NCBI GenBank assembly: GCA_031292515.1
Contig: JARLGZ010000277.1
Span: 1-64,000 of the forward strand
Direction of reading: 5' to 3'
DNA: 64,000 bases
DNA from: Puia sp.
GTDB taxonomy: Bacteria; Bacteroidota; Bacteroidia; Chitinophagales; Chitinophagaceae
Numbering within the stretch: the stretch's first letter is position 1; every line of letters starts with the position of its first letter. The notes under the pieces were generated by a model. It ran no database searches. It had not been told where the DNA came from and worked only from the letters and a program-made list of their open reading frames with translations. The position numbers and the translations under genes were made by a program. This document shows positions 27,401 through 42,743 of the stretch, piece by piece.

Positions 27401-28201
27401 CTGATGATCCAGGTCCTGCAGGCCAGCGCGCAGATACGTGACATACAGGGACGATATCCCCGGTCTCACGAAATCGAAGGAATTTTTAATCTCCTATACG
27501 ACAGGGGCGACTTTGACAGCAAAGACCTGGCACTCACGGAGTGGCAATGCATACACTATATTTCTTTTTCCAGCAAGGGACGATTTTCCCGCCTCCTCTA
27601 TGAGGAACTTTCTGTAAACCCGGAATTCTTTGTACAAGTATTGTCACTTCTTTACAAAGAAGAAGGCGATCCTGCACCTCCCCTTAAAATGTCCGATGCC
27701 GATCCCAAAGCGATTCTTGCAAGAAATGCGCTTACATTTTTGAGTGACTGGCGGCGGTTGCCCGGAAGCGATGAAACGGGTAAGATCGATCCGGCGGCCC
27801 TGGAACAATGGATCGATAGCGCCAGATCCCTGGCCGCAGAAAGTAAACGGCTTAGTCCAGCCGATTTGTATATCGGAAAAATCCTCTCTTATTTCCGCCG
27901 CGAAAAGATATATGAAACCCCTCCCGAGGCCGTTTGTCAGGTTATTGACCGGATCAATACCCGCGAAATTGTCAGCGGTTTTCATACCGAACTCTTTAAC
28001 CAACAAGGATCTTCTTCCAGAAGTCCGTTCGAAGGAGGGAAGCGGGAATGGGCGATGGCCGAGCGACACAAGGCGATCGCGGAGGAGCTGTCACTGAAAT
28101 GGCCCGTCACTGCCTCTATCTACGAAAGGCTGGCGGAAGGCTATCGACATGATGCGGCAAGGATTGATCAAAAAGCCCAACAAGAGTCTCTCGACAGTTA
28201 A
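24419..28201 (+). CDS. Large protein with nuclease-like N-terminus; possible defence effector
   Basis: A 1260-residue soluble protein without signal peptide. Residues 1-160 look like a PD-(D/E)xK-type nuclease domain: GGWDG (Asp54), then SLWEMGTEKD (Glu74), followed by ADDDYKKR and VRVFDGSDLEQWMLDAPAV. Residues 190-350 resemble the nucleotide-binding part of STAND-like proteins (KLVIKARSREEAVAFILAAA and ESGRDLTVLRRLL), but no standard Walker A motif is visible. The remaining 900 residues are helical and repeat-like, as in sensor arms of such proteins. By architecture I infer an anti-phage effector. It stands alone, between an HTH gene and unknown small genes in the accessory region, and ends at a strong terminator. 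I do not recognise a named system. Confidence 0.7.
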   Translation: MKWIDSTQIAHWAINPAAKADLPLVVSRLIRATTPLDSSLDFPSGADTYSGGWDGFVRCGKDTGRVPGGISLWEMGTEKDSKGKADDDYKKRSLKPLGYVPADCTFVFVTPRKWNKKKTWSDAKKAEKKWKDVRVFDGSDLEQWMLDAPAVGWWFAVLSGNMPYDVILSAEQSWNDYAQSPTVKLKTQVLTCSRGAEVAKVCDFLHGPAGKLVIKARSREEAVAFILAAAMEQDLQAREDFLSKTMVFDNVQSFRTVANNRNSLVLIAKFENTEPLDSAVSNGHHVLLPLGADDSHGGGTSLDLPQIGRELEAALQASGLSPHDAHRFMVESGRDLTVLRRLLNFSHLKIKWATPEFSPLLLPALFLGRWDENKEGDRELLKALAGESYMTYIEKISRWRDDANPFVYQIGSRWRLTSSYDAWSLLARYITPTQLARFQETALGVLGQVQPLFDLEPGQRHMAVFFGKESIYSEWVREGVCHSLILFSMFGNSLRLPTGDCQQWVNELVGKLLQSDKPDFWRSLNRLMPLVAEAAPDKFLSTIQTSLATNPKTIMGMFQEDPSPLFPRTYHTGLLWALESLAWLPQYFNRAVHILSRLASFDPGGTISNRPINSLRNIFLPLHPMTFVAYPERFSILEELCKQEADTGWDLVKSIMPSDRQNVFPTERMRWRPFEVENSNQVLTPTEVLKSYSLLFRLGIPLAGLQEDRLTTLLNATNNIFLLPEDRKLVLDHLASIRPQLTDQKLKIITELRSILRRHRTYPNEHWSFPESVLTGYDNLLALYEPNTVVEESMVLFLESHPQLPEMASFDPRDYEAEEKLIHDKRVTALNKVYTESGISGLIDLAEKVVEKTIFGETAAFCFHKMEDQLQLIHGHGLACPEDFNAGAGFTFRSSILKGFGWIKEVFIVLKDTGTDSEGLTRFLGWSAPSGELYDFLETQSDEIIQGYWKKNRPWLTDLSAGQKVRIIERLLAVGRTVEAITQVFRSHADFSTKLMIQVLQASAQIRDIQGRYPRSHEIEGIFNLLYDRGDFDSKDLALTEWQCIHYISFSSKGRFSRLLYEELSVNPEFFVQVLSLLYKEEGDPAPPLKMSDADPKAILARNALTFLSDWRRLPGSDETGKIDPAALEQWIDSARSLAAESKRLSPADLYIGKILSYFRREKIYETPPEAVCQVIDRINTREIVSGFHTELFNQQGSSSRSPFEGGKREWAMAERHKAIAEELSLKWPVTASIYERLAEGYRHDAARIDQKAQQESLDS

Positions 28202-28724: not shown

Positions 28725-29201
28725 TCATAGGGTGTCATTTTGATCTATGGCTTCTATTGAAAATTCAAAAGTCCAGAAGTCCTCACCGGTGTTTTTGCCA
28801 ACCGCTGTAAAACGAGCAGTACCGTCCTTAAACACTTCCATCTTACAGCAATCAATCCGTTGTTCGGGCTGGGAAAAGCTGTCCCTTTCGCCGTCTTCTT
28901 CGAATTCGACAAAAGACCAGGACAGTTCCTGAAGTATGTCCGTCCTATGGACGGAATCTTCTGCTATGCTTTCAGCCCAATCGTCGAGGGAATGCAGATA
29001 CCATCCGTCCGGACTATCCCAATAGATCAGACTGAACATATCCGCATTGTATGGAATTAACTTTGCCGCCAACGACCTTTCTTTGAGCGTTTTAATATAC
29101 CCAGGGGTCATTTGCACCAAGACGAAGTCGCAGGAATCCCATTCAGAAGAGACACCTGCTTTTATCATTAGCCAATCGGTTTGTGTTTTGGATAGTTTCA
29201 T
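28725..29201 (-). CDS. Hypothetical protein, intact member of a duplicated module
   Basis: A 158-residue acidic protein starting MKLSKTQTDWLMIKAGV and ending with the strand-rich tail GEDFWTFEFSIEAIDQNDTL. I do not recognise the family. A decayed copy of its last 25 or so residues exists at 30211-30294, downstream of the second DUF6908-like gene, so this gene and its upstream neighbour were duplicated as a unit. It lies 118 bases downstream of the first DUF6908-like gene, with a hairpin between them. Confidence 0.65.
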   Translation of the reverse strand: MKLSKTQTDWLMIKAGVSSEWDSCDFVLVQMTPGYIKTLKERSLAAKLIPYNADMFSLIYWDSPDGWYLHSLDDWAESIAEDSVHRTDILQELSWSFVEFEEDGERDSFSQPEQRIDCCKMEVFKDGTARFTAVGKNTGEDFWTFEFSIEAIDQNDTL

Positions 29202-29319: not shown

Positions 29320-29775
29320 CTAATAAAATGTAGCGGGATCGACCTTGAGGAAACCCTGACTCTTTATGTTTTTTAGCCAATTACCAGCAAACAAAGCATG
29401 ATCGGCCTGCCAGCTTTTAACGATACCTCGGACTCTACCATCTTTGATCCGAATGCTTTTACGCGCAATGCCAAGAATGTCATGGAAGAAGTAACAAGGG
29501 TAGATAGTCATGAATTCAAATTGATCTTTCTCACGCCTGTTGTCAACCACGAGAAACCCAATCTCAGGATCCCGCAGCTCATCACCTCCCTGAGTATTGT
29601 AATGCGCGAGACTGTAGTGGCTCGCAACTCCAAAGGGAGTTAAGATATTCTCTTCCAATTTCTCCAAAACGAGTGGCATATACCCTTCGTATTCAAGACG
29701 CATATGCTCGTGGCCGTCCATTTTTTCAAGGATTCCCGCAAATGTTTGGGTCGCTTGCTGATTGATTTTTTTCAT
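29320..29775 (-). CDS. DUF6908-like protein, copy 1
   Basis: About 151 residues from ATG 29775 (MKKINQQATQTFAGILEKM). The frame is open further upstream, but the repeat element ends there and the paralogue supports this start. The patterns HMRLEYEGYMPLVLEKLEEN, IGFLVVDNRREKD and FMTIYPCYFFHDILG resemble DUF6908 proteins, common in Bacteroidota conjugative and mobilisable elements. Function unknown. It is closely related to the protein at 30385-30840 along its whole length, and both genes are preceded by the same inverted-repeat element. Confidence 0.7.
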   Translation of the reverse strand: MKKINQQATQTFAGILEKMDGHEHMRLEYEGYMPLVLEKLEENILTPFGVASHYSLAHYNTQGGDELRDPEIGFLVVDNRREKDQFEFMTIYPCYFFHDILGIARKSIRIKDGRVRGIVKSWQADHALFAGNWLKNIKSQGFLKVDPATFY

Positions 29776-29848
29776 AACACTTATTTTTTTGATTGGTTCG
29801 AATTCGGCATGACGCCTCATTCATTCAACCGTAGCGACCAGCACTACT

Positions 29849-30049
29849 ATTCTGCGGAGGGAAAGTCAAGGTTGGAGAAAAAAAATACTACCGCGACGGA
29901 TGTCTCCGAGACCAGGAGGAGGCATAAGAGATCCGATGAGTGGCGAAGCGACTGAGGATCGGTTAGCGTGTGGAGATTTTTTTTTGGAACCTGCGAACGA
30001 TACGACCAAAGGGAGTAAAGTGAAGACCTTGACTTTACCGGAGCAGAAT
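29849..30049. repeat. Noncoding inverted-repeat element, copy A
   Basis: Two 24-nt arms (29849-29872 and 30026-30049) are inverted repeats of each other. ATTCTGC and AAAGTCAAGGT match, with a small central mismatch. They enclose about 150 nt with conserved blocks (GTGTGGAGATTTTTTT followed by GGAACC, and GGAG followed by an A-run before ATAC). Nearly the same sequence occurs as copy B, and a diverged form as copy C. It precedes the DUF6908-like gene on the minus strand. Structured RNA leader, or palindromic promoter region; no coding frame is shared by all copies. Confidence 0.7.
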
Positions 30050-30210
30050 CGTATTTTTCGGTTGTTTGTATGAATAAGAGGTATCAACCGTATTCGGCAT
30101 AAACGGTGTCTGGCTATTTTCTCGGATTTTGATTGGATTCGCGGCCTTTTAACAATGAGTGGTGAGGAGAAGGAAGGGCCCCCGTTTCAGGGTGCACACG
30201 GATCGGGCTT

Positions 30211-30294
30211 TTATAAAATGGAAAGGGCATCTATGGAAAACCCGAATGTCCAGAAGTCTTCCTCGGTATATTTTCCGGCACGGTTACGCATCCG
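30211..30294 (-). pseudogene. C-terminal remnant of the 158-residue protein gene
   Basis: On the minus strand this reads GKYTEEDFWTFGFSIDAL before a stop at 30211. It aligns with GKNTGEDFWTFEFSIEAI at the end of the intact gene at 28725. The rest of the gene is missing; DNA upstream joins directly to the sequence normally found before that gene. A deletion removed the gene body after the duplication. Confidence 0.75.
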
Positions 30295-30335
30295 GTATTT
30301 ATTTGTCTGTGAATAGAAAATGATGTTTTGAAGTG

Positions 30336-30366
30336 AGCCGTCGCCGGAAAGCTGCCGGCAACGGCT
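30336..30366 (-). other. Second copy of the intergenic hairpin
   Basis: AGCCGTCGCCGG and CCGGCAACGGCT as at 29273-29300, but with a 7-base loop. Its preservation beside a decayed gene suggests it belongs to the DUF6908-like transcript. Confidence 0.55.
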
Positions 30367-30384
30367 GAATAGACTTCATCTTTA

Positions 30385-30840
30385 TCAGAAAAGGCGGGTT
30401 GGCTTCATTATTAGAAAGCCCTGCTGACCAATGTTTTTCAGCCAGGTATTAGCAAAAACAGTATGGTCGGACTGCCAACGCTTGTTGATGGAAATGACTT
30501 GCCCATGTTCAATCCCCAAACTGTGTTGCTCAGTTCCTGTGACGTCATTCAAAAAGTAGCAGGGGAAAATGCCCATAAATTCTACTTCTTCTTTGTCGAG
30601 GCGAAAGTCAATGACTAAAAAGTTCATTTTCGGAACTCTCAACACTTTCCCTTCCCAGGTTTGCTCGTGTTCCAAACTGTACCTGATCGTGATGCCAACG
30701 GGAGTAACTATGTTTTCTTCCAGCTTTTCCATGACAAGCGGCAGATACCCGTTCAACTCCAGTCGCATGTGTTGATGGTCGTTTAATCTTTCTAATAGCA
30801 CCGCAAAGACTTTGTTCGATTCATGATTAACTCTTTTCAT
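30385..30840 (-). CDS. DUF6908-like protein, copy 2
   Basis: About 151 residues from ATG 30840 (MKRVNHESNKVFAVLLERL). It matches copy 1 throughout: HMRLELNGYLPLVMEKLEEN, MNFLVIDFRLDKE, FMGIFPCYFLNDVTG, and a WLKNIGQQGFL tail. The protein has diverged far more than the noncoding element upstream, which is nearly identical in the two copies. Function unknown; a tandem duplicate inside the accessory region. Confidence 0.7.
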   Translation of the reverse strand: MKRVNHESNKVFAVLLERLNDHQHMRLELNGYLPLVMEKLEENIVTPVGITIRYSLEHEQTWEGKVLRVPKMNFLVIDFRLDKEEVEFMGIFPCYFLNDVTGTEQHSLGIEHGQVISINKRWQSDHTVFANTWLKNIGQQGFLIMKPTRLF

Positions 30841-30920
30841 AACATTCCATTTTTTAAGTAATGATTGATCCGAATTCGGCATAACGCCTCATTCATTCAA
30901 CCGTAGCGACCAGCACTACT

Positions 30921-31118
30921 ATTCTGCGGAGGGAAAGTTAAGGTTGGAAAAAAAATACTACCGCGACGGATGTCTCCGACACCCGGAGGAGGCATAAAAG
31001 TCCAATGAATGGCGGAGCCATCAAGGATCGGTTTGCGTGTGGAGATTTTTTTTTGGAATCCGCGAACGATACGACCAGAGGGAGTAAAGTGAAGACCTTG
31101 ACTTTACTGGAGCAGAAT
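30921..31118. repeat. Noncoding inverted-repeat element, copy B
   Basis: Arms at 30921-30944 and 31095-31118, similar to copy A along its entire length and into the flanks. An inner hairpin differs from copy A but still pairs: ATGGC/GCCAT here, against AGTxGC/GCxACT in A. On the plus strand the right arm contains TTG and, 20 bases later, TATTTTGC, which resembles an outward-facing promoter. Confidence 0.7.
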
Positions 31119-31310
31119 CGTATTTTGCGGTTGTTTGTATGAATGAGCCTGCGGGTGGGAATTTTTATAAACTCTTGCAAGAATTTATAAAAATCAGCGG
31201 TGGCCATTATGAATATAGGGATGTTCACCCCTGCAAGGATTGCCCCCATCGAAAGCACAGACAGTTGAAGAAGTGGCTATTTGTCGATAATCTGAGACAA
31301 CTGTGGCTCT

Positions 31311-31658
31311 TTAGTGATAGGGGTCATGGTATCCCGGCGGAGTGGTCTGCTCCCTTCCGCTCCCTTCCAATAACAGCAGGGGGTTGGTTTCATTTTCGAT
31401 CGAATCCGGGATGACGCCTCTGTAAATGGATTCAAACCAAACCGTGTCGTAAACCCGGCTTTCAATGACCCGATGAGCATCGGGTGGCGTGTAGGCTTTA
31501 AGAACATCATAAAAGGCAACGGCTTGCTTTTTATCAGTATAGGCCTTCATGATTGTATCCGCTTTGATGACTATGTCTGCCTTAATACCCGTGTATCCAG
31601 GCTGTTCCGCCGGAACAATGAAAGTCCAAACGATGTAGGTTACCACATATTTCCACAT
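31311..31658 (-). CDS. Hypothetical small protein
   Basis: A 115-residue protein starting MWKYVVTYIVWTFIVPAE, with DTIMKAYTDKKQAVAFYDVL after it. The opening strand followed by a helix with conserved KKQAVAFY resembles small proteins from Bacteroidota phages and plasmids. The first 17 residues are hydrophobic but no clear signal cleavage site follows. A competing plus-strand frame at 31139-31414 overlaps its end; I prefer this gene because of its start and its neighbours on the same strand. Confidence 0.5.
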   Translation of the reverse strand: MWKYVVTYIVWTFIVPAEQPGYTGIKADIVIKADTIMKAYTDKKQAVAFYDVLKAYTPPDAHRVIESRVYDTVWFESIYRGVIPDSIENETNPLLLLEGSGREQTTPPGYHDPYH

Positions 31659-31693
31659 GGCGGTTATTAAGCGGTTTTAGAGGTTCTTTGATT

Positions 31694-32590
31694 TCAAGAA
31701 TATTTTCGAATGTTTTGAAAAGGGTCAAGTTGGATGGCTTCCTCCTTTGATATGATTGTACGAAGGGGCCTTGTCGGATAGGACAGCTCCAACCAGTCGG
31801 GAAACGACAATACGGGGGATTGGTAAGCGGTTGCCCGCCCCCTGTTTAAATTGGACGTTTTCTCTACATAGCTGCTGTATTCGGCTTGTACCCGGATGAC
31901 ATCTTCCCTTGCAAACTGTCTGTTTGACTTGCTGTTGGGTGATTTCCTGCTGGCGGCATCCGGGTTTTCCATGGCGCCGGCCGGTTGAAGGTATTTCCAG
32001 ACACCCAACACCGTCCGCTCCACTACACCGTCCAGGTTTTCCTGTATCACCGATTTTGCCAGCCTCGTCGCAATGGATGCACCGGAAACGCTTTTAAACT
32101 TGCTTATCATTTTACCTTCCAGGTCGAACAACCCTACCGGATCTTTTGCTTCATTACATCTCTCCTTTGGCGGAAAGGTCTGATGATCGAAATACGACCA
32201 ATAGAATCCACCACAGGTAGTCCGCCACTTTATCGCGGCCATGATGCCACGAGGGTCCCTACCGACTGTGCAGGCCGCCTCTGCAACTGTATTCCATCTC
32301 TTGGCGAGTACGCTAACCAGGGTATACTGGTATACCGGCTTGAACTTTTCCGTTTGCAGCCCCCGTACGTCAATGGTTGCTGGCGGTGTATTATCGAAGG
32401 CCCTCCAGATCCCATGGGTGGTGCAATCCTTTTTGCCCAGTATACAGTCTTCTATGGCAGTTTGAGATAAAAATACCGCCCTGGAGGCACCCACCACACT
32501 ATTGTAGACACCTATGAGCGCACCTTCGATATTATATTGACCCAATTTTTTCCCGTGCAACGTCATGCCTTTAACCCTCCTTTTTGCCAT
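31694..32590 (-). CDS. Protein of three NUMOD1-like DNA-binding repeats, no nuclease
   Basis: 298 residues. Three repeats of the NUMOD1 pattern are visible: QYNIEGALIGVYNSVVGAS with IEDCILGKKDCTTHGIWRAF (about 18-65), QYTLVSVLAKRWNTVAEA with GFYWSYF (about 88-134), and LFDLEGKMISKFKSVSGAS with VLGVWKYL (about 153-202). NUMOD1 normally sits behind GIY-YIG or HNH homing-endonuclease domains as a DNA-reading module; neither nuclease motif is present. The C-terminal 100 residues are basic and then unstructured. Possible roles are a DNA-binding regulator or an orphaned recognition module. Confidence 0.7.
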   Translation of the reverse strand: MAKRRVKGMTLHGKKLGQYNIEGALIGVYNSVVGASRAVFLSQTAIEDCILGKKDCTTHGIWRAFDNTPPATIDVRGLQTEKFKPVYQYTLVSVLAKRWNTVAEAACTVGRDPRGIMAAIKWRTTCGGFYWSYFDHQTFPPKERCNEAKDPVGLFDLEGKMISKFKSVSGASIATRLAKSVIQENLDGVVERTVLGVWKYLQPAGAMENPDAASRKSPNSKSNRQFAREDVIRVQAEYSSYVEKTSNLNRGRATAYQSPVLSFPDWLELSYPTRPLRTIISKEEAIQLDPFQNIRKYS

Positions 32591-32937
32591 CCTTTATATT
32601 CTATTCTTCGTTCAAGTGATAAAAGAACCCCAACCGGGGCCGCTATAAGCGCAGGCATTCGGTTAAATACTAAGCGGGGATTTAACATATATGTCCAGTT
32701 TATAATAGGTCGTTGTTATAATACAACCAGTCCCCCTTGAACAACCTATTTAAAAGAAGATTTTTGAAAAAAAAGAGGAGGTAGATGTCCGTTGGTACGC
32801 GGACGAAGAAAATCTTACATAAATTCAAAAAAAAGATGATTTTATTCCGTTTTTTTTCTCCTTTCTCCGTTTTATAGGAAAGAGGGTTGGCGGTGTCCAT
32901 GGGGAGCCGTTTATATAATGGCTCGCGCGATGGGTGG
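32591..32937. other. Intergenic region upstream of the NUMOD1 gene
   Basis: AT-rich with long A and T runs, and no convincing gene. It contains the 5' region of the NUMOD1-repeat gene (minus strand) and the downstream region of the 197-residue gene. A short hairpin GTTG/CAAC at about 32712-32727 is the only structure I see. Confidence 0.4.
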
Positions 32938-33531
32938 TCACCTCAGCGAGGATGCATTCGCATTTGCCGACGAAAAAATTGATGTCTCTTTCAGGATATT
33001 GCTGATATCTTCAGGCGTCAGCGCGGTACCTTCATTTCTGTCTTCTTTTAATTTTTCAATATTTTCGAGTGCCCATGATACCAGGCTGAACAGTAAATTG
33101 ACGGGTAGGTGTTTATCCCTGGCGACGACCCGAATGCCCATCCCGAGGTTTTTCCAATTGCCGTCTTTAGGGCCATACACAAAATCATCCCCATCTATGT
33201 AATCCCATCTAACTGTAAAAAAGGGTTGATTGTCCGCTGTTTGATAATCAATAAATAACCAAACCCGCTGCGTCTTGTACGGGGCTGTATTGCTTATAAA
33301 GACGGAAACCATTTCCTGGCATGCCAGTCCCAGCACATTCACTGCCTTATTGTCCAGGCGATCCTCTCGATGGGTGGTAATGACCACGTCAGCACCAAAG
33401 ACGTTCCGCCGAAGATCCCTGGTCGCTTGCAGGGGGATGGCTAACCGAGAGCCGGATCCTGATGTTGAAACACGTTTCCCGGCTTGAGGGCCCATGGAGA
33501 CAGCGAGTTTTTTCATCCAATCAATGAGCAT
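32938..33531 (-). CDS. Hypothetical protein
   Basis: 197 residues, starting MLIDWMKKLAVSMGPQAG. No signal peptide. The central part FTVRWDYIDGDDFVYGP and a helical C-terminus ending SANANASSLR suggest a soluble alpha+beta protein. I recognise no family. It is divergent from the MG2/TonB-plug operon and lies among mobile cargo genes. Confidence 0.6.
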   Translation of the reverse strand: MLIDWMKKLAVSMGPQAGKRVSTSGSGSRLAIPLQATRDLRRNVFGADVVITTHREDRLDNKAVNVLGLACQEMVSVFISNTAPYKTQRVWLFIDYQTADNQPFFTVRWDYIDGDDFVYGPKDGNWKNLGMGIRVVARDKHLPVNLLFSLVSWALENIEKLKEDRNEGTALTPEDISNILKETSIFSSANANASSLR

Positions 33532-33630
33532 AGTTGTTTATTGCTTAAAACAACTTCACCAGCGTGATTAACCCATCCGCGTTGCATTTTTCCCGTTCCT
33601 CCCAGGGTACATCCTATTCCTGACTGGCCA

Positions 33631-33681
33631 AATAAAACAAGCTGCCTGATGGGTTACCAGGGTCAGTTGGTTTGTTTTATT
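33631..33681. repeat. Inverted repeat between divergent genes
   Basis: Perfect 10-bp arms AATAAAACAA (33631-33640) and TTGTTTTATT (33672-33681) are separated by 31 bases. It sits between the 197-residue gene and the MG2/plug operon, where an operator or regulatory hairpin would lie. Confidence 0.5.
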
Positions 33682-33776
33682 AGTTGCCTTGACGCCGATT
33701 CATTAATCTTTATTTACAATTATCCATAACAGTTACCCCTAACAATCATTCAATGTTAATCAGCAACCTATTGAAG

Positions 33777-36440
33777 ATGAACCGCTTACTAAGGACTGGA
33801 CAGATCGCTTTCTTTGTTCTGACCTGGGGACAGTCAATCGCACAGATATCGGTCACCCAGGGGCGGCCCTTGGCAAGCCAGGATAGTTTGCGGGTGGGCT
33901 CCGTCTTTTTTCAGCAGTTTGGCCAGGTGTCGCAGAGGTTTCCCGAGGAAAAGATTCACCTCCAACTGGACCGGGACCGGTATTTTGCCGGGGACACGAT
34001 CTGGTTCAGGTCTTACTTTTTTTTGGGGGGAGTACCGGGGGCCTGCAGCCAATCGATGCGGGTCGAACTTTATAAAGACAGCACACTTGTTGAAAGCAAA
34101 TCTTATCCGGTCGGTTTCGCTGGCGAACTGGAACTGCCGGAAAATCTCGCAGAGGGGTATTATATAATACAGGCTTATACTCCCTGGATGGCAAATTTCG
34201 ACCCAACACTCTTCTACCGCCGAACCGTCCAGGTTTACCAGCTTCGCCGGGCTAATGAGAAACGGTTAGAAGGACCGATTGCTGGAAGCCGAATGAAGGT
34301 AAAGAGCAGCCCAGCAACGAATACGCAGATGGAATCGGCAGACACCAGCCAGCTCGGAGGAAAAGATTCGTTGACATTGAATCAGTCGGAAACTTCGGTC
34401 ATCCCACACCGTCTGGATGTCCAGTTTCTCCCGGAAGGGGGCGCCTCCATCGAGGAGGTCTATTCCCGGGTGGCATTTATCGCCACGGACGATTGGGGTA
34501 ATCCGGACTCTATACAGGGGTGGATAGTGAACAATACGGGGGATACGGTTGCCCGCCTGGAGACGGCCCATGAGGGGATGGGCAGTTTCGATTATATACC
34601 GCACACGGGGCGGATCTATTACGCGCATATACATTCGCCATTCGGAGACCGGGAAGTTCCGTTGCCGGCAGCCCAGCCGGACGGGATATCCATCCAGGTG
34701 ATGCCGATGGAGGACGGTCAAAAGGGGGTGAAGATCACCCTCCGGGCTCCCGGCAAAAGCAGGTACTTCAATCACACACTGCATATATTGGGTTCGATGT
34801 TCGGGAACCCGGTGTTTGAAGCGACCGCTCACATAACGGAAACCTTGCGTGTCTTCGACGGGATCATTCCCACCGATCATTTTGTCAATGGTTTGCTACG
34901 GATCTCCGTAATCGATGAAGACTCCCTGCCGCTGGCCGAGCGGGTGGTCTTTATCCGCCCGAAGCCCCTTTTTTTGAATCCGCAATGGCAGTTGGATACG
35001 CTGGATATCTCCCGGAGGGGACTGAATGGCTGGTCCTTGCATTTTCCCGACAGCGTAAAGGGCAGCCTCTCCATCTCGGTGACGGACGCCGACGCCCTAC
35101 CAGACCTGCAGCATTCGGACAATATATTCACTGACCTACTGCTTACCGAGGACCTGGCGCCCGGGAATCGGACATCAGATGACCAAAGAGAGTTACGGGG
35201 AAGGATCCCCGATCCGGGATATTACTTCCAACAGGCCCCGGACAGCGCTCAAAGAGACGCTTACCTGGACCTCGTGATGATGACCCATGGGTGGCGTTCC
35301 TTTGGCTGGAAGGAGATCCGAAACCCGGCGAGCCTCCCCGCCATCCGGTATCCGATGGGGGAAGCGCTGAACTTTCCGGGAAAGGCACTCTTCGAATTTG
35401 GGCATAAGCCGATCCGGAACAAAGAGCTCACCATCCTCCTCCAATCCCCCTCGATCCCTACACAGATTGTGATGACGCAGGCGGATTCGGGGGGACATTT
35501 TTATTTGAGCGGGCTGCAGTTCTTCGATACAGCCACCGCTTTTTTTCAGATCAACGAGCAAGGCAATCCGGCCAAGAATATCCGGTTGCTGCTCGACCCG
35601 GCGCTCAGATTCCCCCCATCCTATCCGATGGATGAATATTCCAGCATGGATAAAGGGCTGACGCAAGACACGATTTTTCGCGCCAGCGCGGGTAAAAAAG
35701 CGGAAGTGGACAGGGAGATACATCGGTTCAATCAGGCCCGGGAGTTGAAGGAAATCGTGATAAAAAGCGACAAGGACAGTCCCAGGCTGCAATTGCAGGA
35801 GCTGGATGACCGGTATGCCTTTGGGATGTTTCATGATACCCAGGGGTACGGCTTCGATTTTATTCATCACCCGGAGTATGCCATCGGGACCAACGTGATA
35901 AAATTCCTGGAGGGCCGCATTCCCAGCCTGGTCCTCAAAGGGGGCGGCATTGTCGATACGTCCCTTTCCTATCGGGGAGGCGGGTGTCCTGCCCTATTCC
36001 TCGACGAAATGCCCGCGACGTTCAGGGACATCCTCGACGTCCCCATGACCAATATTGCCTATGTCAAATTCATTTCACCCCCTTTTATGGGCGCTCCCTT
36101 CGGAGGAGCCAATGGCGCCCTGGTGGTCTATACAAAACACGGTGAAGACCTCCTGGGTGAAGCAACCGGTCTGAACCGACTCACGCTTAAAGGATATGCC
36201 GTGTCCCGACAGTTTTATTCACCCCTTTATGACAAAGAAGATGACGGCAGACAGGACTCCCTGGCGGACTACCGGATCACCCTGGCCTGGAAGCCCTATG
36301 TCCCGCTTAACAGTGAGCAGGTCGCCAGAATCCGGTTCTTCAATAACGATCACTGTAAACAGGTAAGGGTGACTGTGGAAGGAATGGATAATTCCGGAAA
36401 ACTGTTGCATTTTGAAAAGATTGTCCAGGGCAACGAATAA
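33777..36440 (+). CDS. Surface protein with MG2 domain and TonB-plug-like domain
   Basis: About 887 residues from ATG 33777 (MNRLLRTGQIAFFVLTWGQS), which gives a signal peptide ending IAQ; another ATG lies 8 codons upstream. Residues 45-160 show the macroglobulin MG2 pattern: PEEKIHLQLDRDRYFAGDTI and YYIIQAYTPWM. A TonB-receptor plug-like region sits near the C-terminus: TNVIKFLEGRIPSLVLKGGG and FGGANGALVVYTKHG. No beta-barrel follows. Such proteins are common in Chitinophagaceae, and their role at the outer membrane is unknown. The poly-XRE gene starts 4 bases after its stop, so they are probably co-transcribed. Confidence 0.8.
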   Translation: MNRLLRTGQIAFFVLTWGQSIAQISVTQGRPLASQDSLRVGSVFFQQFGQVSQRFPEEKIHLQLDRDRYFAGDTIWFRSYFFLGGVPGACSQSMRVELYKDSTLVESKSYPVGFAGELELPENLAEGYYIIQAYTPWMANFDPTLFYRRTVQVYQLRRANEKRLEGPIAGSRMKVKSSPATNTQMESADTSQLGGKDSLTLNQSETSVIPHRLDVQFLPEGGASIEEVYSRVAFIATDDWGNPDSIQGWIVNNTGDTVARLETAHEGMGSFDYIPHTGRIYYAHIHSPFGDREVPLPAAQPDGISIQVMPMEDGQKGVKITLRAPGKSRYFNHTLHILGSMFGNPVFEATAHITETLRVFDGIIPTDHFVNGLLRISVIDEDSLPLAERVVFIRPKPLFLNPQWQLDTLDISRRGLNGWSLHFPDSVKGSLSISVTDADALPDLQHSDNIFTDLLLTEDLAPGNRTSDDQRELRGRIPDPGYYFQQAPDSAQRDAYLDLVMMTHGWRSFGWKEIRNPASLPAIRYPMGEALNFPGKALFEFGHKPIRNKELTILLQSPSIPTQIVMTQADSGGHFYLSGLQFFDTATAFFQINEQGNPAKNIRLLLDPALRFPPSYPMDEYSSMDKGLTQDTIFRASAGKKAEVDREIHRFNQARELKEIVIKSDKDSPRLQLQELDDRYAFGMFHDTQGYGFDFIHHPEYAIGTNVIKFLEGRIPSLVLKGGGIVDTSLSYRGGGCPALFLDEMPATFRDILDVPMTNIAYVKFISPPFMGAPFGGANGALVVYTKHGEDLLGEATGLNRLTLKGYAVSRQFYSPLYDKEDDGRQDSLADYRITLAWKPYVPLNSEQVARIRFFNNDHCKQVRVTVEGMDNSGKLLHFEKIVQGNE

Positions 36441-36444
36441 AGCA

Positions 36445-37716
36445 ATGAAAGCAACGGGTCCCGTCAGCAAAAGAATTTTTGAAAAACCATATCAAATGTT
36501 GAAAAAAACTTTCCCCGTTAATAAGAACGGGTCAAATACAGTAGACAGCGCTTCACAGACCGATAAAATCGGGGGCAATGGGCTGCATATCGGGATTTTG
36601 CTCTCGCTGGTTCGGGAAGAAAAAGGCATACCAATCGAACGGTTGGAAAAGAAATTACAAATTGATCGGAAAGAAATTATCAGTCGTCAAAAAAAAGCGG
36701 TTTGGTATGTCTCTGAGTTTACCAAGTATGTAGAAGCCCTAAAAGTAAGCGCCGACGATCTGCTGTCGATATTCCCCCGCCATCCGGTAATCGGATCGCC
36801 CGAAAAGCCAATCGGCTCAATAATAAAACGAGCCCGAATCAGTCTGCAACTCAGCCATCACAAATTCGGAGACAACCTGGGCACTAATCCCTATAAGGTC
36901 AGGAACCTGGAAAGGGCTACGGCCCTTCCGTTAGACATATTGTATCGTATCGCCCTTTCCCTGGGAACATCCGTAACAGAACTGTTAAACGACCAAAAGA
37001 AGATAAAAACGATTGGAACGGAACAGAATCCGATAGGGCGAAAAATTAAATTCTCCCGGGAAACAAGCGGGATCACCGTGGAAGAGTCCTCCCGGAAACT
37101 GGGGCTTACTTATTTTGAATACAGGCTCTTCGAGAGAAGCACCTGTCTTTCGGAAAGATTATTTGCGAAGATCGCAAGCGTTCTCAAAATGAGCGAAACG
37201 AAAATACTATCCCTGAAACCACCCGGCGAAGAGGAGTGGGTATTCTTGCCGAATGGTCATTTGGGTTTGAAAATCAGGCATGTCAGGGAATCAAAAAAAT
37301 GGTCCGCATACAAGCTCGCATCCGTTGCCAAATACAAAGTCCATTATATTTCAGAGCTGGAAAAGCGCGACCGAATCAAAAAAAGCGACCTGGAATCGAT
37401 CGCCCATGCCATGGAAATATCCATTAAGACAATTGTAGAGGCCCCCGAGGACGATCTGTCATCGCTGATAGGGAGCATAGAAAGACCGATCGGGTTGCAA
37501 TTTAAGGCTGTAAGACGATTTCATCAAAGAACCACCCATAATATGGCTAAGATATTGTGTATGGATCATGCCAAATACCTGAATTTCGAAAACAGCCAGG
37601 TACAAATTTCGAGGAGACTCCTGGACACACTTACCCGAAAACTCAAACTTCCGAATTCTTATATATTGGATATCTCTTATCCGGAAGTAGATAAGGTAAG
37701 AAAATATTTCAGTTAA
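36445..37716 (+). CDS. Protein with five tandem XRE-like HTH domains (poly-XRE 1)
   Basis: 423 residues from ATG 36445, just after the upstream stop. After a basic, unstructured N-terminus, five units of about 65 residues follow at roughly 47-109, 117-181, 191-256, 268-333 and 343-409. Each begins with a G-x4-PIG-xx-[IL]-[KR]-xx-R element (for example GSPEKPIGSIIKRAR and GSIERPIGLQFKAVRR) and continues with the helix spacing of Cro/C1-type HTH domains. One or two XRE domains per protein is normal; five is unusual. Domains 4 and 5 match domains 3 and 4 of the next gene. DNA binding is inference; several units lack a typical recognition helix and could be protein-protein modules. Confidence 0.75.
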   Translation: MKATGPVSKRIFEKPYQMLKKTFPVNKNGSNTVDSASQTDKIGGNGLHIGILLSLVREEKGIPIERLEKKLQIDRKEIISRQKKAVWYVSEFTKYVEALKVSADDLLSIFPRHPVIGSPEKPIGSIIKRARISLQLSHHKFGDNLGTNPYKVRNLERATALPLDILYRIALSLGTSVTELLNDQKKIKTIGTEQNPIGRKIKFSRETSGITVEESSRKLGLTYFEYRLFERSTCLSERLFAKIASVLKMSETKILSLKPPGEEEWVFLPNGHLGLKIRHVRESKKWSAYKLASVAKYKVHYISELEKRDRIKKSDLESIAHAMEISIKTIVEAPEDDLSSLIGSIERPIGLQFKAVRRFHQRTTHNMAKILCMDHAKYLNFENSQVQISRRLLDTLTRKLKLPNSYILDISYPEVDKVRKYFS

Positions 37717-37727
37717 AAAACGGGACT

Positions 37728-38711
37728 ATGGCAGTAGAAAAGGAACCCATTGTACCTACCGGCTATCCCGCTATTTTGGGGTCTATAAGCGATCCGATCG
37801 GCCCCCGGCTCTATAAATTTCGACTATTGCTGAACATCAGGCGGAAAGAACTGGCCGACAGGATGAATTGTCATCACCTGGATGTCCGCTATATCGAAAG
37901 AAGAACGACGGTATCCCTGGAAACCGTTTATAAAATTGTCGCACTATTGGATATTACCCTGCCGCAATTGTTGGGCGAGGAAAAGTTTACGATGTATGGA
38001 AGCCCTTCCAACCCGGCAGGTGCGGCTATCAAAGCCATGCGGGAAGCCAGGGGAAGACTCGTTCCAGAATTTTCTAAAAAGGCAGGCTTCTCTCTCAGGC
38101 ATTATCAGAAAATTGAACAAAGTATCGAGATTCCCGAGCGTTTTTATCTTCGGATCAAAGAGGCGCTTTCAAAAAACCTGGAGGATATCACAGATGCAAG
38201 AAGATCCACCGGGGAACCTTGGGTATTCCCCCCTAAAGGGCATATCGGATCAAAACTACGCCACATCAGAGAATCAAAAGGCCTGAACAAAAAGCAGATG
38301 GCTAAAAAAATGGGATATACCATTTCCATCGTAAATCAGATGGAAAAATCCGAAACGATCAAAAAGACGCTCCTTACGACTGCAGCCACTGCCTTACGAT
38401 CCACCCTCCAGGAGATCGTAGATGCGCTGGACGCAGAAGCGATCGAATTATTCGGAAGTGTGGAAATGCCCATCGGGAAGCAATTTAAGGCCGTCCGTCT
38501 CCACTTCACGTTGACGCCGAGGGAAATGGCCCGAAAAATAAAAATGCATCCGCAGAACTATTTCGATATCGAAGAAAAGATGGTACAATGCACTGGTAAA
38601 ATGCTGAGTAGAGTGGCTGTCGGTTTGGGGGTAACCAATGAGTATGTTTTGGAATTTCGCCCAAAGGAAAGCCCACATGAGGTTTATAGCCATCCGATGG
38701 ATAACTCTTGA
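37728..38711 (+). CDS. Protein with four tandem XRE-like HTH domains (poly-XRE 2)
   Basis: 327 residues, a paralogue of the preceding gene 11 bases upstream. Units lie at about 18-82, 91-155, 168-232 and 243-307, with openings GSISDPIGPRLYKFR, GSPSNPAGAAIKAMR, PKGHIGSKLRHIRES and GSVEMPIGKQFKAVR. The third has the best XRE pattern (LNKKQMAKKMGYTISIVNQM). The order of the last two units is the same as in poly-XRE 1, so the genes arose by duplication with gain or loss of one unit. Probably forms a complex with, or acts beside, poly-XRE 1. Confidence 0.75.
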   Translation: MAVEKEPIVPTGYPAILGSISDPIGPRLYKFRLLLNIRRKELADRMNCHHLDVRYIERRTTVSLETVYKIVALLDITLPQLLGEEKFTMYGSPSNPAGAAIKAMREARGRLVPEFSKKAGFSLRHYQKIEQSIEIPERFYLRIKEALSKNLEDITDARRSTGEPWVFPPKGHIGSKLRHIRESKGLNKKQMAKKMGYTISIVNQMEKSETIKKTLLTTAATALRSTLQEIVDALDAEAIELFGSVEMPIGKQFKAVRLHFTLTPREMARKIKMHPQNYFDIEEKMVQCTGKMLSRVAVGLGVTNEYVLEFRPKESPHEVYSHPMDNS

Positions 38712-38768
38712 GTTGGACGAGTAGCGCGTATCAAATGAAGATTCTTATTTTAACCTCAATTGCTTATT

Positions 38769-39245
38769 ATGAAATTGTTTCTGCATTTAGTTATCGTTTG
38801 GGGTCTGTTTTCTGGTTGCTCAAACGAAACCGTTAAACCATCGGATACCGACACTTCGGGTAAAGGCAATAGCCCGGCGATCACCCAAGAGCAGGATACT
38901 GGTATTTCAGGGAAGGGCAATACCAAGTCGATCACCCAGGAGCAAGAAGCCAGCGTTTCAAGGAAGGGCAATCCTCTATTGGTCAAACAACAGCAGGATT
39001 CCAGCCCGAATGTTCAAATTACCTTGCAGGGAGATAGCAATACCGTTGAAACGAATTCCAACATATCGGGCGATGGAAATAATATATCCGTAGATCAACG
39101 ACAGGATTCGGGTCGGCATTTCCAAAACAAATGCAAGGTCTCGGGAAAGGGCAACAACATTTCAGTGAGGCAGGGAAAGGGCGTCAGCGTGGATATCCAG
39201 ATCACGGTGGCAGGCGACAGTAACAACGTTCAAATCAGCCATTAA
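38769..39245 (+). CDS. Lipoprotein with curlin-like repeats
   Basis: 158 residues. MKLFLHLVIVWGLFSGC is a lipoprotein signal with the lipobox LFSGC. The mature part consists of about seven repeats of the type SGKGNxxxITQEQD (SGKGNSPAITQEQD, SGKGNTKSITQEQE, SGDGNNISVDQRQD, SGKGNNISVRQGKG). The spacing G-x-x-N-x5-Q is that of curlin (CsgA/CsgB) repeats that fold into a beta-solenoid amyloid. Lipid anchoring would make it a surface nucleator or coat rather than a free fibre subunit. It follows poly-XRE 2 by 57 bases, the last gene of the operon. Confidence 0.7.
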   Translation: MKLFLHLVIVWGLFSGCSNETVKPSDTDTSGKGNSPAITQEQDTGISGKGNTKSITQEQEASVSRKGNPLLVKQQQDSSPNVQITLQGDSNTVETNSNISGDGNNISVDQRQDSGRHFQNKCKVSGKGNNISVRQGKGVSVDIQITVAGDSNNVQISH

Positions 39246-39287
39246 GTGGCGCTGCGGACGGATTGTCACGGATTTGGCAGTGGGTAC

Positions 39288-40148
39288 TCACTGAAGCAAC
39301 TTCCTGAACTTGTCTTTTAGTAAGTCGACCGATGAGTAATGCTTCCTATAATTTTCCAACAATTGTAGGACATAGCTCTGATCCGTACAGGAAACATAGT
39401 TGGTTGCCTGGGCTGGCAATAACATATCAATCATAACTTTTACAAAACTTTGAACGATCAATTCACGGCGGTCATGGCGGAAAAGGACTTTTGTCGGGGT
39501 CAGCGGAAATATCATCCCGGAAGTATGGAGCGACTGGCCTTGCTCATGGAGTGAAATAACAGGGTTGTCGCTAACTAATTTTGGCAGCCCGTCGGGGAAA
39601 GTTATAATTGTGGCATGATCCTGTTCCTGTTTTGTAAAGATCTCCGGGTACGTGATCCCCGGCATCTGCCCACGAAGGAATCTAATAAACTGCGGATCTT
39701 TGATCAGTTCTCTTTCCCGGTCATCGGATTCTCTTTCTCCAGTTGTTTTGTTGATTAACTTAGCGCCAAAGACCGAAAGGTTTTTGGCATTTGTAACCAG
39801 ATCCTCCAATTGCGCTGTGTTATTCGGGTTTCTCCAGTAAAGAATATTGGTAAAATACTGCAGATGCGTCCATTCAGCAGGGATTAACTGCGTTGCTCCC
39901 CTCTCTTTGATCTTCGCGAAAATATTGCTGATTAGGGTATCGTGTTTGGTAAAACTATTTTCGACGAAATAAGAGGCATTGCCCTTCGAAAATACCGTGT
40001 TGATATCGGGAACAAAGAAATGACTCGCCGGAGAAAACCGATTATCCCCCTTTTTGAACCGCCCTTTCCTGACATTGTAAATATAAAAGAGGCCGTCTTC
40101 GTCGGTAAAGTTTTTAAGGTAAAATTCGGGGACAAAATGTTGTTTCAT
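39288..40148 (-). CDS. DUF4238 domain protein
   Basis: 286 residues starting MKQHFVPEFYLKNFTDEDG, the characteristic DUF4238 opening (QHFVPxFYLxxF). Further family-like stretches are FTNILYWRNP and a DNPVI segment (LVSDNPVISLHEQG), then MIFPLTPTKVLFRHD. DUF4238 is widespread in mobile and defence-rich regions; its activity is not established to my knowledge. It converges on the curlin-like lipoprotein gene and starts 31 bases after the Lrp-like gene on the same strand. Confidence 0.85.
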   Translation of the reverse strand: MKQHFVPEFYLKNFTDEDGLFYIYNVRKGRFKKGDNRFSPASHFFVPDINTVFSKGNASYFVENSFTKHDTLISNIFAKIKERGATQLIPAEWTHLQYFTNILYWRNPNNTAQLEDLVTNAKNLSVFGAKLINKTTGERESDDRERELIKDPQFIRFLRGQMPGITYPEIFTKQEQDHATIITFPDGLPKLVSDNPVISLHEQGQSLHTSGMIFPLTPTKVLFRHDRRELIVQSFVKVMIDMLLPAQATNYVSCTDQSYVLQLLENYRKHYSSVDLLKDKFRKLLQ

Positions 40149-40179
40149 GAATTTAACGCTAAAGGCGGCTTGCTTGGAG

Positions 40180-40686
40180 CTAATGGGAACTCCTGGAAGG
40201 CTTTCGGGACTTTTTGTCCGTTTTTAACGAAAAAGTGGTTTCGACTTTGTTTTCTTTCAACACTACAAAACTCCGCATGCCGCCAATGTCCGGGAGGGCC
40301 GAGAGTTTTTCCACAAGAAATGCCTGGTATTCCTTCAGGTCTTTGGTGACTATTTTCAGGATATAATCGTAATCGCCGGTAACATGATAGCACTCCATGA
40401 CTTCGTGGAATTGGGTACACTCCCTTGCAAACCCGAGTAAGGCCTCATTGGATTGCTCTTTTAATTCGACGCCAACGATTGCAACGAGATTTTTTTCGAT
40501 CAGGTCCTTATTGAGGATCGCCGTATAACTTACAATAAAGCCGTCTTCTTCCAATCGCTTGATGCGTTGCACCACCGCTGTCGAGGAACGATTGATTTTA
40601 TCCGCGATTTCTTTGTTGGTCAGGCGGCTGTTATGTTGTAAAAGTCTAAGTATAGTAATATCTGTTTCATCAATGGTGCCCACCAT
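40180..40686 (-). CDS. Lrp/AsnC-family transcriptional regulator
   Basis: 168 residues: N-terminal winged HTH (DETDITILRLLQHNSRLTNK and INRSSTAVVQRIKRLEEDGF) and a C-terminal RAM ligand-binding domain (VAIVGVELKEQ, CYHVTGDYDYILKIVTKDL). Such proteins respond to amino acids as dimers or octamers. A basic tail (KTDKKSRKPSRSSH) extends past the usual end. The target is likely itself or adjacent genes; no operator could be defined. Confidence 0.93.
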   Translation of the reverse strand: MVGTIDETDITILRLLQHNSRLTNKEIADKINRSSTAVVQRIKRLEEDGFIVSYTAILNKDLIEKNLVAIVGVELKEQSNEALLGFARECTQFHEVMECYHVTGDYDYILKIVTKDLKEYQAFLVEKLSALPDIGGMRSFVVLKENKVETTFSLKTDKKSRKPSRSSH

Positions 40687-41352
40687 AAGTTTACTTTTTA
40701 AAGTTTTAGAATTCGTTCCGCTTTGAATTCTTCTGAATCGTAAGATTTCGGGAGCTAATTTAACTATTTTGACAGGTACGGCGAATTTAACTGGTTAGCT
40801 TACTGAAATTTTTAACCTTTATCAAAAGATTGCCCCACATGATAAGAGACACTATTTTGAAGACAGGCGCCAGCGGACATGTAGCAGCTGAATGCATATA
40901 TTCCTCCCAGCATAAACACGGATATCCGCATGTACTATCTGTCAATTTCCGCCGCTCGGAACCCTTCATTAACTCGGATGTCCCCGTCGAAAAGCTGTAC
41001 GTCCCCAATAAAACCTTGTTGGTACGAGTCGTGAAAAAATCATGCTATTACCCAGCTTCATTTGTCGCCACCGAAAATTTCGAAAAACGACGAAAACAAT
41101 CCCCGGTCCACCAGCGGATGGCTTAGGAATATACCCAAACGTATTGGCGTCCGTCCGGGATGAGGCTGTTTTCAAAGGCCTTATGGCCGGATAGTACCCG
41201 GTCAGCGGATCCCGGACCCGCCGTACATTCATCCCGCACGACAAGCCGCAAGCGATAGCCAATACGTGGCCTGAAAGTGTCCACGATACCCGGGCCTCAT
41301 TGATTATGGGTGGAAGTCGTCGTTCAGCCCAACCATATGCCGCCATACCATC
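40687..41352. other. Gene-poor stretch between Lrp-like and sigma-factor genes
   Basis: Open frames of about 100 residues exist on both strands (40830-41126 plus, 40969-41346 minus), but they overlap each other and show no recognisable motif. I do not call either. The region probably contains the two divergent promoters and decayed sequence. Confidence 0.4.
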
Positions 41353-42039
41353 ATGAATCTGAGAACATGTAAATCAAACAATCCTTCGTACATGACTATC
41401 CACACCCCAGAAGAAACAACGCCGACGCTGGTTGGAAAGCAGACAGGTAAGCGACCTGTAAACAGGATACAGTCCTTTCCCCAGAAAATGAATCAACCCA
41501 TCAAGGGTCGTGATTTTGTAAAGTTATTTAGAAACGAAAAACTCAGGGAATTTGAAAGCCTTCATCGGGAGTTGCTTCATTATGCGTATAAGTACCTGGA
41601 AAACATACCCGATTCACAGGAAATTGTTTCGGAGGCGTTCATAAAATTGATAACGCTTCAAAAGCCGTTTAGCACGATGGAGCATGTACGAAGTTGGCTA
41701 TTTGTTGTTGTCCGAAACGCCTGCATAGATGTCTTGCGGGAAAAAATAGCGAATCGTAAATACATCACCCACATGGAGGCCGACGATTTCTTGGCTGCTC
41801 CAGACGACAGCCATGAGCGTTATGAGTGGGAGGAAAGATACAAATTGCTTCCCCAGATTGTGCATGAAATCAAAGACCTAAGTCCCCGGAAAAAAGCGGT
41901 CTTGTCTTTGTATTATTTTCAAAAAAAGACGTACAAAGAGATATCATCCATTTTAAACATTGCTGCGCAAACTGCCAGAAATCATAAAACGGAAGCGATC
42001 AACGAGGTGAGAGCGAAAATAAATATTCCGGAAAAATGA
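41353..42039 (+). CDS. ECF-type RNA polymerase sigma factor
   Basis: Up to 228 residues. Region 2 is seen as FESLHRELLHYAYKYLENIP, then SEAFIKLITLQKPF and VRSWLFVVVRNACIDVLREK. Region 4 is LSPRKKAVLSLYYFQKKTYK followed by EISSILNIAAQTARNH. The first 45 residues before M46 (ATG 41488) are unlike the family, so the true start may be 41488. No anti-sigma (FecR-like) gene or SusC/SusD pair adjoins it, so this is an orphan sigma factor whose regulon cannot be read here. Confidence 0.88.
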   Translation: MNLRTCKSNNPSYMTIHTPEETTPTLVGKQTGKRPVNRIQSFPQKMNQPIKGRDFVKLFRNEKLREFESLHRELLHYAYKYLENIPDSQEIVSEAFIKLITLQKPFSTMEHVRSWLFVVVRNACIDVLREKIANRKYITHMEADDFLAAPDDSHERYEWEERYKLLPQIVHEIKDLSPRKKAVLSLYYFQKKTYKEISSILNIAAQTARNHKTEAINEVRAKINIPEK

Positions 42040-42086
42040 GAAACTTGTGAATATTTTTTAGCTATAGAAATTCAACCATCGGATCG

Positions 42087-42353
42087 TCAATAGTCAGCCG
42101 AGGCACCGATGGCTACCAGCCGGCTTTTGTTAAACTTACGCTGGCCGGTTTCGATTCCCTGAGCCGTTTTCCACTCCAGCAGGAAGGTGACGTTTTTTTC
42201 CGTCTGGCTGTGAATGGCAACGACTTTTGAACAGTCGCCAAAGTTCCAACGCATAAATTCACCAACTTTGAATTCGCCGGCTGGTTTGGCCTCACACCAC
42301 CCGTATTCCTGCAGCCAGATACAAACCTTCCCATTGATCGTTTTCTGTGACAT
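42087..42353 (-). CDS. Hypothetical small protein downstream of element copy C
   Basis: 88 residues starting MSQKTINGKVCIWLQEYGWC, rich in beta-strand-forming residues (FLLEWKTAQGIETGQRKFNK). It ends close to and convergent with the sigma factor. No family recognised. Its upstream region contains a diverged copy of the same inverted-repeat element that precedes the two DUF6908-like genes, although the proteins are not related. Confidence 0.6.
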   Translation of the reverse strand: MSQKTINGKVCIWLQEYGWCEAKPAGEFKVGEFMRWNFGDCSKVVAIHSQTEKNVTFLLEWKTAQGIETGQRKFNKSRLVAIGASADY

Positions 42354-42435
42354 AATTGTTATTTTTATTTGTTATTAATTCTCGGACTGTTCGGTCCGGG
42401 GCTTTATTGAAACCCTTACGCGACCAGCGATTCCT

Positions 42436-42608
42436 ATGCTGCAAGGGAAATCCAAGTTGGAGGGGGAAAAATACGACCCAGATAAAGAAACCCGCAGGGG
42501 TCCTTGGAGCGAAGCGGTAAATGGTGTGGAGATTTTTTTACCGGAACCCGTGAAGCTGTTCGCGGCGAAGCCCGAACAGCGGAGACTTGGATTTCCTCGG
42601 CGCAGCAT
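42436..42608. repeat. Noncoding inverted-repeat element, copy C (diverged)
   Basis: Arms at 42436-42457 and 42585-42608 pair over ATGCTGC and GGAAATCCAAGT. Relative to copies A and B both arms carry the same substitutions (ATT to ATG, AAAGTCAAGGT to AAATCCAAGT), so pairing is kept. Conserved blocks GTGTGGAGATTTTTTT and CGACCAGC remain. An additional perfect 8-bp hairpin GCTGTTCG/CGAACAGC lies at 42555-42580. Confidence 0.65.
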
Positions 42609-42743
42609 TGTATCTGTCTTTACGGTTTCAAATAAAGACTCAGATGGAATGGTCATGTGTGCCGGTGGAATTTCCAGCAATGATTCATCCCTCGTATTTT
42701 CCCCGTTCGAAAAATAATACCCAGGTGCTCTTTTCGGATATCT

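Follow-up and report, generated by a model that had tools for sequence, protein, structure and literature searches.

What purpose is served by three related inverted repeats that lie upstream of minus-strand genes in a Puia sp. genome (contig JARLGZ010000277.1)? The window, that is the whole stretch analysed, comprises positions 1–64,000 of the contig, and on its numbering we delimited element A at 29,833–30,075 (by sequence, repeat search, folding as single-stranded DNA (ssDNA) and alignment A4), element B at 30,904–31,145 (sequence, repeat search, core-motif scan and ssDNA folding) and element C at 42,415–42,625 (sequence, core-motif scan and ssDNA folding), all on the + strand, which in A is the folded strand. 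We consider it very likely that these elements are ssDNA promoters of conjugative elements, similar in kind to the Frpo and ssi promoters, that would drive leading-region genes and be shut off in duplex DNA. This view rests on sequence, predicted folding, the position and spacing of promoter boxes, orientation and gene content; from these we infer which strand is transferred, that the folded strand is transcribed and that the promoter is silent as a duplex.

Promoter boxes on the folded strand

Bacteroidota promoters have the consensus TTG at −33 and TAnnTTTG at −7. We scored these boxes in elements from a contig set that had been selected via the core motif of the elements. The set held 131 core matches, of which 126 were full length and were reduced to 67 clusters, the five truncated matches and the duplicate loci L001–L028 being dropped. 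TAnnTTTG was present on the + strand of the 3′ arm, to the right of the T-tract and pointing away from the gene, in 31 of the 67 clusters (3.4 in shuffles), and in 17 clusters a TTG stood at promoter distance from it (0.4 in shuffles). A gene-ward TAnnTTTG on the 5′ (left) arm was found in a single cluster of the 67 (3.7 in shuffles). Because the gene is to the left of the element, the good box faces away from it in duplex DNA. On the gene-sense strand, TAnnTTTG showed no enrichment either to the right of the element (4/63, with 8.0 expected) or between element and gene (2/47, with 3.3 expected).

Measured along the linear sequence, the TTG and the strict box are 17–40 nucleotides (nt) apart, with 17–23 nt in 14 of 26 cases and 32–40 nt in the other 12. 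Counted along the template arm in the fold, the spacing is 18–23 nt in 25 of the 26 strict cases with a partner (25 of 31 strict boxes in all), compared to 5 of 124 when the 5′ (left) arm was shuffled. The sole strict outlier, L029, has a template spacing of 42, and here the wrong box was probably chosen. With strict and relaxed boxes pooled, 48 clusters were examined and 35 of the 40 with a partner had a template spacing of 18–23 nt. This constancy is our strongest single result, because a promoter of such a kind is correctly spaced only when folded. Of the 26 strict cases measured, 12 had extra bases on the non-template side, and at two loci, L037 and L048, these bases appeared by eye able to form a small hairpin of their own.

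Folding of 32 boxes with DNA parameters gave a mean unpaired probability that peaks at 0.77 on the A of TA and declines to 0.24 by the final base of the box. The flanks are mostly paired, with mean unpaired probabilities of 0.14–0.27 over the six bases that precede the box and of 0.19–0.30 at 12–18 nt after the box start. In these predicted folds the box thus tends to sit unpaired between paired flanks.

The position of the boxes bears on a suggestion of the first-pass annotation, namely that the elements could be a structured RNA leader or a small RNA. A leader of the attenuator or riboswitch type at the 5′ end of the minus-strand mRNAs would be in keeping with a conserved fold showing compensatory changes, and with elements that lie mostly upstream of genes on the opposite strand. 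However, the promoter box is on the other strand, in the 3′ arm (31 clusters with the box pointing away vs one gene-ward), no gene-sense box is enriched upstream, and a constant template spacing would be meaningless for RNA. In addition, Rfam gave no match over the element at a plausible score (window 28–44 kb and 8 loci). We therefore regard an RNA leader as quite unlikely, and the suggestion of a leader or small RNA was not sustained.

Layout of elements A, B and C

The three elements share a common plan. Read 5′ to 3′ on the + strand, it runs from GCGACCAGC through the 5′ arm and an A-tract with ATAC(K)ACC to an inner hairpin of variable sequence, and then through GTGGAGATTTTTTT and a side hairpin to the 3′ arm, with a TTG 20–21 nt before a TA-rich box. 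Several element copies have an outer helix in addition.

In element A, GCGACCAGC (29,834–29,842, largely conserved in alignment A4) is the template-side stretch that faces the promoter box and may contain the start site. It is followed by the 5′ arm found in the repeat search, the template arm of the folded strand (29,845–29,872), and by the A-tract with ATACTACC (29,878–29,892), the 5′ side of an UP-like helix that is helix 5 of the structure used for the 13 copies below. The 3′ side of this helix is GTGGAGATTTTTTTTT (29,970–29,985), recognised from sequence and the core-motif scan. The non-template 3′ arm (30,026–30,053, sequence and repeat search) carries a −33-like TTG at 30,029–30,031, and the −7-like box TATTTTTC is at 30,052–30,059, 20 nt after the TTG by the spacing measurement. 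The repeat search gives 153 nt between the arms and 82% complementarity.

Element B has its 5′ arm at 30,917–30,944 (approximate), the A-tract at 30,948–30,956, the core GTGGAGATTTTTT at 31,039–31,051, the 3′ arm at 31,095–31,122 and the −7-like TATTTTGC at 31,121–31,128. The repeat search found the 3′ arm of B solely as a partner of the 5′ arm of A, and the 5′ arm of B was read by eye. The same search matched B to A as direct repeats D1–D3 and placed both within one duplication of ~1.07 kb, gene included, so that A and B count as about one event. Element C comprises GCGACCAGC (42,420–42,428), the 5′ arm (42,435–42,457), the A-tract (42,467–42,472), GTGGAGATTTTTT (42,526–42,538), the side hairpin (42,556–42,579), the 3′ arm (42,585–42,608) and the −7-like TATCTGTC (42,611–42,618). 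The arms of C are absent from the repeat-search list and were read from the sequence by eye. All these parts are on the + strand.

Pairing is kept while the arms change

The first-pass annotation had described three related inverted repeats with compensatory changes, and the arms, the matched substitutions, the inner hairpin of A and B and a test on 13 copies bear this out. By eye, ATTCTGC/GCAGAAT in A is matched by ATGCTGC/GCAGCAT in C, a second arm change replaces AAAGTCAAGGT/ACCTTGACTTT of A by AAATCCAAGT/ACTTGGATTT in C, and paired changes are also seen in the inner hairpin between A and B. We folded the + strand of each element as ssDNA and compared it with 200 dinucleotide shuffles. The z values were −3.25 for A, −2.01 for B and −2.73 for C, with 0, 5 and 1 of the 200 shuffles, respectively, as stable as the element.

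The test for compensatory change used the 13 copies in this genome and a 37-pair structure taken from A, with 500 shuffles and slid versions of the structure as controls. Both-side changes occurred in 33 cells, compared to 12.3 in shuffles (reached in 0/500) and at most 20 in slid versions. Twelve pairs were changed on both sides, compared to 7.9 in shuffles (4/500), with one slid version also giving 12, and further pair types were not above shuffles among these copies (25 vs 24.6). Arm complementarity exceeded that of the element's own shuffle in 65 of the 67 clusters, and a 16-element subset gave 29 pairs, 8 of them changed on both sides. In the small internal loop beside the A-tract helix, the ATACNACC side is kept in all 13 genome copies, which had been picked by the GTGGAGATTTTTT side alone and not by the ATACNACC side.

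Arms that vary between copies while their pairing is kept argue against a site that acts as duplex DNA, be it a protein-binding palindrome or the repeated duplex control sequences of a zygotic regulon, such as the EGeRS of pLS20. An establishment regulon of this type does exist: as set out in parts of PMC8708921, pLS20-type plasmids have repeated control sequences before their establishment operons, much as we find here, and the authors argue against ssDNA promoters there. In our elements, however, the promoter-like spacing of the boxes arises in the fold alone and the box points away from the gene. We consider a duplex regulatory site very unlikely.

Neighbouring genes and establishment functions

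Simple open reading frame (ORF) calling was used to assign neighbour strands in 56 of the 67 clusters, 11 being dropped for short flanks. The nearest ORF to the left was on the minus strand in 49 of 55 cases, and in 38 of 55 the nearest ORF to the right was also on the minus strand, its 3′ end facing the element. First genes were assigned for 52 clusters, the other 15 of the 67 being dropped because no minus-strand ORF of 75 amino acids or more lay within 700 nt to the left. They encode SSB in 10 of the 52 and ArdA in two, which places establishment genes (ssb, ardA) downstream of the elements, and DUF932 proteins in four.

The commonest gene under the elements belongs to DUF6943 (16 of 52; L037:526–936 and 15 other loci). 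The predicted structure of its product resembles one half of a specificity subunit of type I restriction, and the protein is a candidate anti-restriction decoy.

In the window, A and B each precede a DUF6908 gene on the minus strand, at 29,320–29,820 for A (the true start possibly lying further inside) and at 30,385–30,882 for B, both from the ORF list and Pfam. Behind the DUF6908 gene of A, the next minus-strand ORF (28,725–29,201, no Pfam match) may belong to the same operon. The gene downstream of C (42,087–42,353, minus strand, ORF list) encodes 88 amino acids without a Pfam match. The first-pass annotation was thus correct in placing all three elements upstream of minus-strand genes, the third unrelated to the others, and its idea of a conserved folded regulatory element shared by unrelated small genes gains support. 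At other loci the elements lie near conjugation genes.

Relaxase orientation and conjugation context

Two contigs of this genome each have an element immediately upstream of an SSB gene. The one on C145, at 111.7 kb, is followed by genes for SSB, RadC, a CHC2/Toprim protein, MobC, a relaxase and a coupling protein, all on the minus strand; on C114, the relaxase and coupling protein genes are ~14 kb beyond the element and its SSB gene. From the 114 listed loci described below we chose 50 by hand for a search with the relaxase profile PF03432, which covered 49 of them in 48 genomes and gave a match in 26. These 26 genomes contain 44 core matches, compared to 6 for the reversed control of the 13-base core, and 27 of the 44 are within 50 kb of a relaxase. 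When distinct relaxases were counted, 25 of 26 were on the strand opposite to the element, for which p = 8e-7 if they are independent, some genomes being close relatives. The element was on the 5′ side of the relaxase in 21 of 26. Relaxosome genes are typically found in the lagging region near oriT, according to parts of PMC11541004, so the strand of the element fits the transferred strand.

Copy number and distribution

The 13-base core GTGGAGATTTTTT has 13 matches in this genome and its reversed control none. Each contig carries them in one orientation: six on C145 (+), four on C114 (−), two on C195 (−) and one on C85 (+), with a further copy of changed core at the end of C85. Several copies per contig might be expected of a priming signal of the ssi or sso type, which would start the complementary strand and turn incoming ssDNA to duplex, with gene expression secondary. 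Frpo itself is said to have been described as both promoter and primer site by Masai and Arai in 1997. However, the elements are tied to gene starts and establishment genes, and we find it extremely unlikely that priming is their main role; such a role is compatible with an ssDNA promoter and not exclusive of it.

A motif pair was found in at least 114 stretches of a genome-contig collection, and of those listed 111 are from Bacteroidota by their titles. The other three (L035, L114 and L116) are small contigs labelled Mycolicibacterium and Rhodanobacter and a Bacillota metagenome-assembled genome, and are probably contamination or misbinning. Within the family, 5 of 60 genomes carry the motif pair, this genome included, and it is missing from the one other genome of the genus examined. 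The control of the motif pair had no match in the 60 genomes; the pair is specific. A 14-base core alone matched 62 of 395 genomes of the phylum (76 matches, 12 of them in this genome, compared to ~21 for the reversed control) and is not specific across the phylum. In a plasmid collection blastn gave no match for the two elements tested, and among viral contigs four stretches were found.

A patchy distribution is as expected for mobile DNA and, together with the many copies in one genome, could point to a miniature transposable element. The first-pass annotation had in fact raised a mobile regulatory palindrome. The regulatory part of that proposal stands, with elements near conjugation genes elsewhere. 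A miniature transposon is not supported, because neither relative to the left gene (49/55) nor relative to the relaxase (25/26) is the orientation anywhere near random; the flanking genes also differ and promoter parts are embedded in the elements. We give this explanation almost no credence.

Comparison with known ssDNA promoters and a model

Promoters active as ssDNA are known by experiment from enterobacterial plasmids, as reported in parts of PMC9849209 and PMC11541004. In Frpo, the folded strand rebuilds the −10 and −35 boxes and is required for early expression of leading genes (PMC9849209, in part). Frpo1 and Frpo2 of plasmid F, and the ssi promoters of ColIb-P9, resemble our elements in being long inverted repeats upstream of ssb. 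When the F element is folded on the matching strand, the SSB gene is on the 5′ side, an A/T-tract helix is high in the stem and an unpaired stretch is lower down. The F region likewise contains DUF932, antirestriction and SSB genes, and its leading and tra genes are on one strand. By prediction the Bacteroidota elements show the features of Frpo/ssi, in that one strand folds and the 3′ arm with the boxes pairs with the 5′ arm beside the gene. They differ from Frpo of F in using −33/−7 instead of −35/−10 boxes, in having a conserved ATACNACC/GTGGAGAT motif and a further inner hairpin, and in the extra non-template bases of 12 of 26 strict cases. A comparison of 67 representatives with the Frpo region gave no real homology, only two short weak hits (19 nt, E 0.006; 37 nt, E 0.07), and the elements are therefore a functional analogue and not a homologous member of Frpo/ssi.

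For anti-defence islands, too, ssDNA promoters have been predicted upstream of the anti-defence and SSB genes of leading regions (Samuel et al. 2024, PMC11541004, in part). Those candidates came from BLAST with known Frpo/ssi sequences and from −35/−10/UP searches in chosen islands, unlike ours. The word Bacteroid does not occur in the main text of PMC11541004, nor in that of PMC12826799, in which Frpo was located by BLAST with known sequences. A search of the literature, chiefly open-access, found no ssDNA promoter from Bacteroidota.

We suggest the following model. The promoter would act as Frpo/ssi do, but in a form adapted to the RNA polymerase of Bacteroidota. The host would be an integrative or other conjugative element whose leading-region (establishment) genes the promoter serves. 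On entering the recipient, the transferred strand (+ here) would fold, so that the 3′ arm with the −33 TTG and the −7 TAnnTTTG-like box becomes the non-template strand and the 5′ arm the template. The A/T-tract helix would then occupy the position of an UP element and the −7 box would tend to sit in a preformed bubble flanked by helices. Transcription by RNA polymerase could then leave the hairpin and run into the gene on its 5′ side. Synthesis of the second strand should silence the promoter, because the boxes of the duplex face away from the gene and their spacing is often wrong. An arriving element could thereby turn on protective genes immediately in a new host.

A wider claim might just as well hold as fail in our estimation: that Bacteroidota conjugative elements have a phylum-wide class of ssDNA-only promoters, useless as duplex, with a pre-opened −7 bubble, a spacing of ~20 nt measured on the template arm and up to ~19 extruded non-template bases, and that these promoters drive an establishment regulon in which the most frequent member, DUF6943, counters type I restriction as a decoy resembling half a specificity subunit.

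Several observations weigh against an ssDNA promoter. The strict TAnnTTTG is confined to 31 of 67 clusters and the copies in the window carry the near-boxes TATTTTTC, TATTTTGC and TATCTGTC instead; in the relaxed-box set, five clusters had a spacing of 34–46 and eight had no confident partner. RNAalifold returned no common structure and no pairs on a 61-sequence alignment, from which 6 of the 67 clusters had been excluded by hand as odd. In plasmid F, used as a control, a simple sigma-70 −35/−10 scan placed no boxes in the 3′ arm. Conservation of the core motif in the contig set is partly selection, because the set was chosen by that motif, and some core matches in the relaxase genomes are due to chance, given the 6 matches of the reversed control. 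The PF03432 search gave no relaxase in 22 of 48 genomes, and for 23 of 57 motif matches none was present on the contig within 50 kb. One of the 26 relaxases is on the same strand as the element, five have the element on their 3′ side, and the 26 genomes include close relatives. The assignment of the element strand as the transferred strand comes from relaxase orientation. A–C are 65–78 kb from the relaxase of C145, separated from it by genes of chromosome-like or cargo type, and may be part of either a remnant or the far end of the same conjugative element. Counts of G.T and A.C mismatches, tried as an indicator of the folding strand, gave 93 vs 51, a share of 0.65; we set this test aside as uninformative because the permutation control expects a higher share (0.69) than was observed.

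Other features of the region

The genes between A–C and the relaxase include SusC-type, transporter and lanthionine-synthetase-like genes; one product of the last kind (L144:374–3052, on C145) scores below the cut-off of the LanL profile. Just left of the A/B region are a Mutator-family transposase (window 22,511–23,731) and an ORF of 1260 amino acids (24,419–28,201). A minus-strand protein at 31,694–32,590 has a NUMOD1 domain, which is a domain of homing endonucleases, and a small protein at 38,760–39,245 has tandem repeats rich in glycine, asparagine and glutamine.

Implications

If the elements are indeed ssDNA promoters, Bacteroidota follow the same logic with an unrelated design, and such promoters would seem to have arisen more than once. 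The template-measured spacing raises the testable question of how RNA polymerase reads a promoter whose strands are of unequal length. The elements would also provide a sequence handle for locating the leading regions of Bacteroidota conjugative elements, where position alone would flag new establishment and anti-defence genes such as those of DUF6943, DUF6908 and DUF932.

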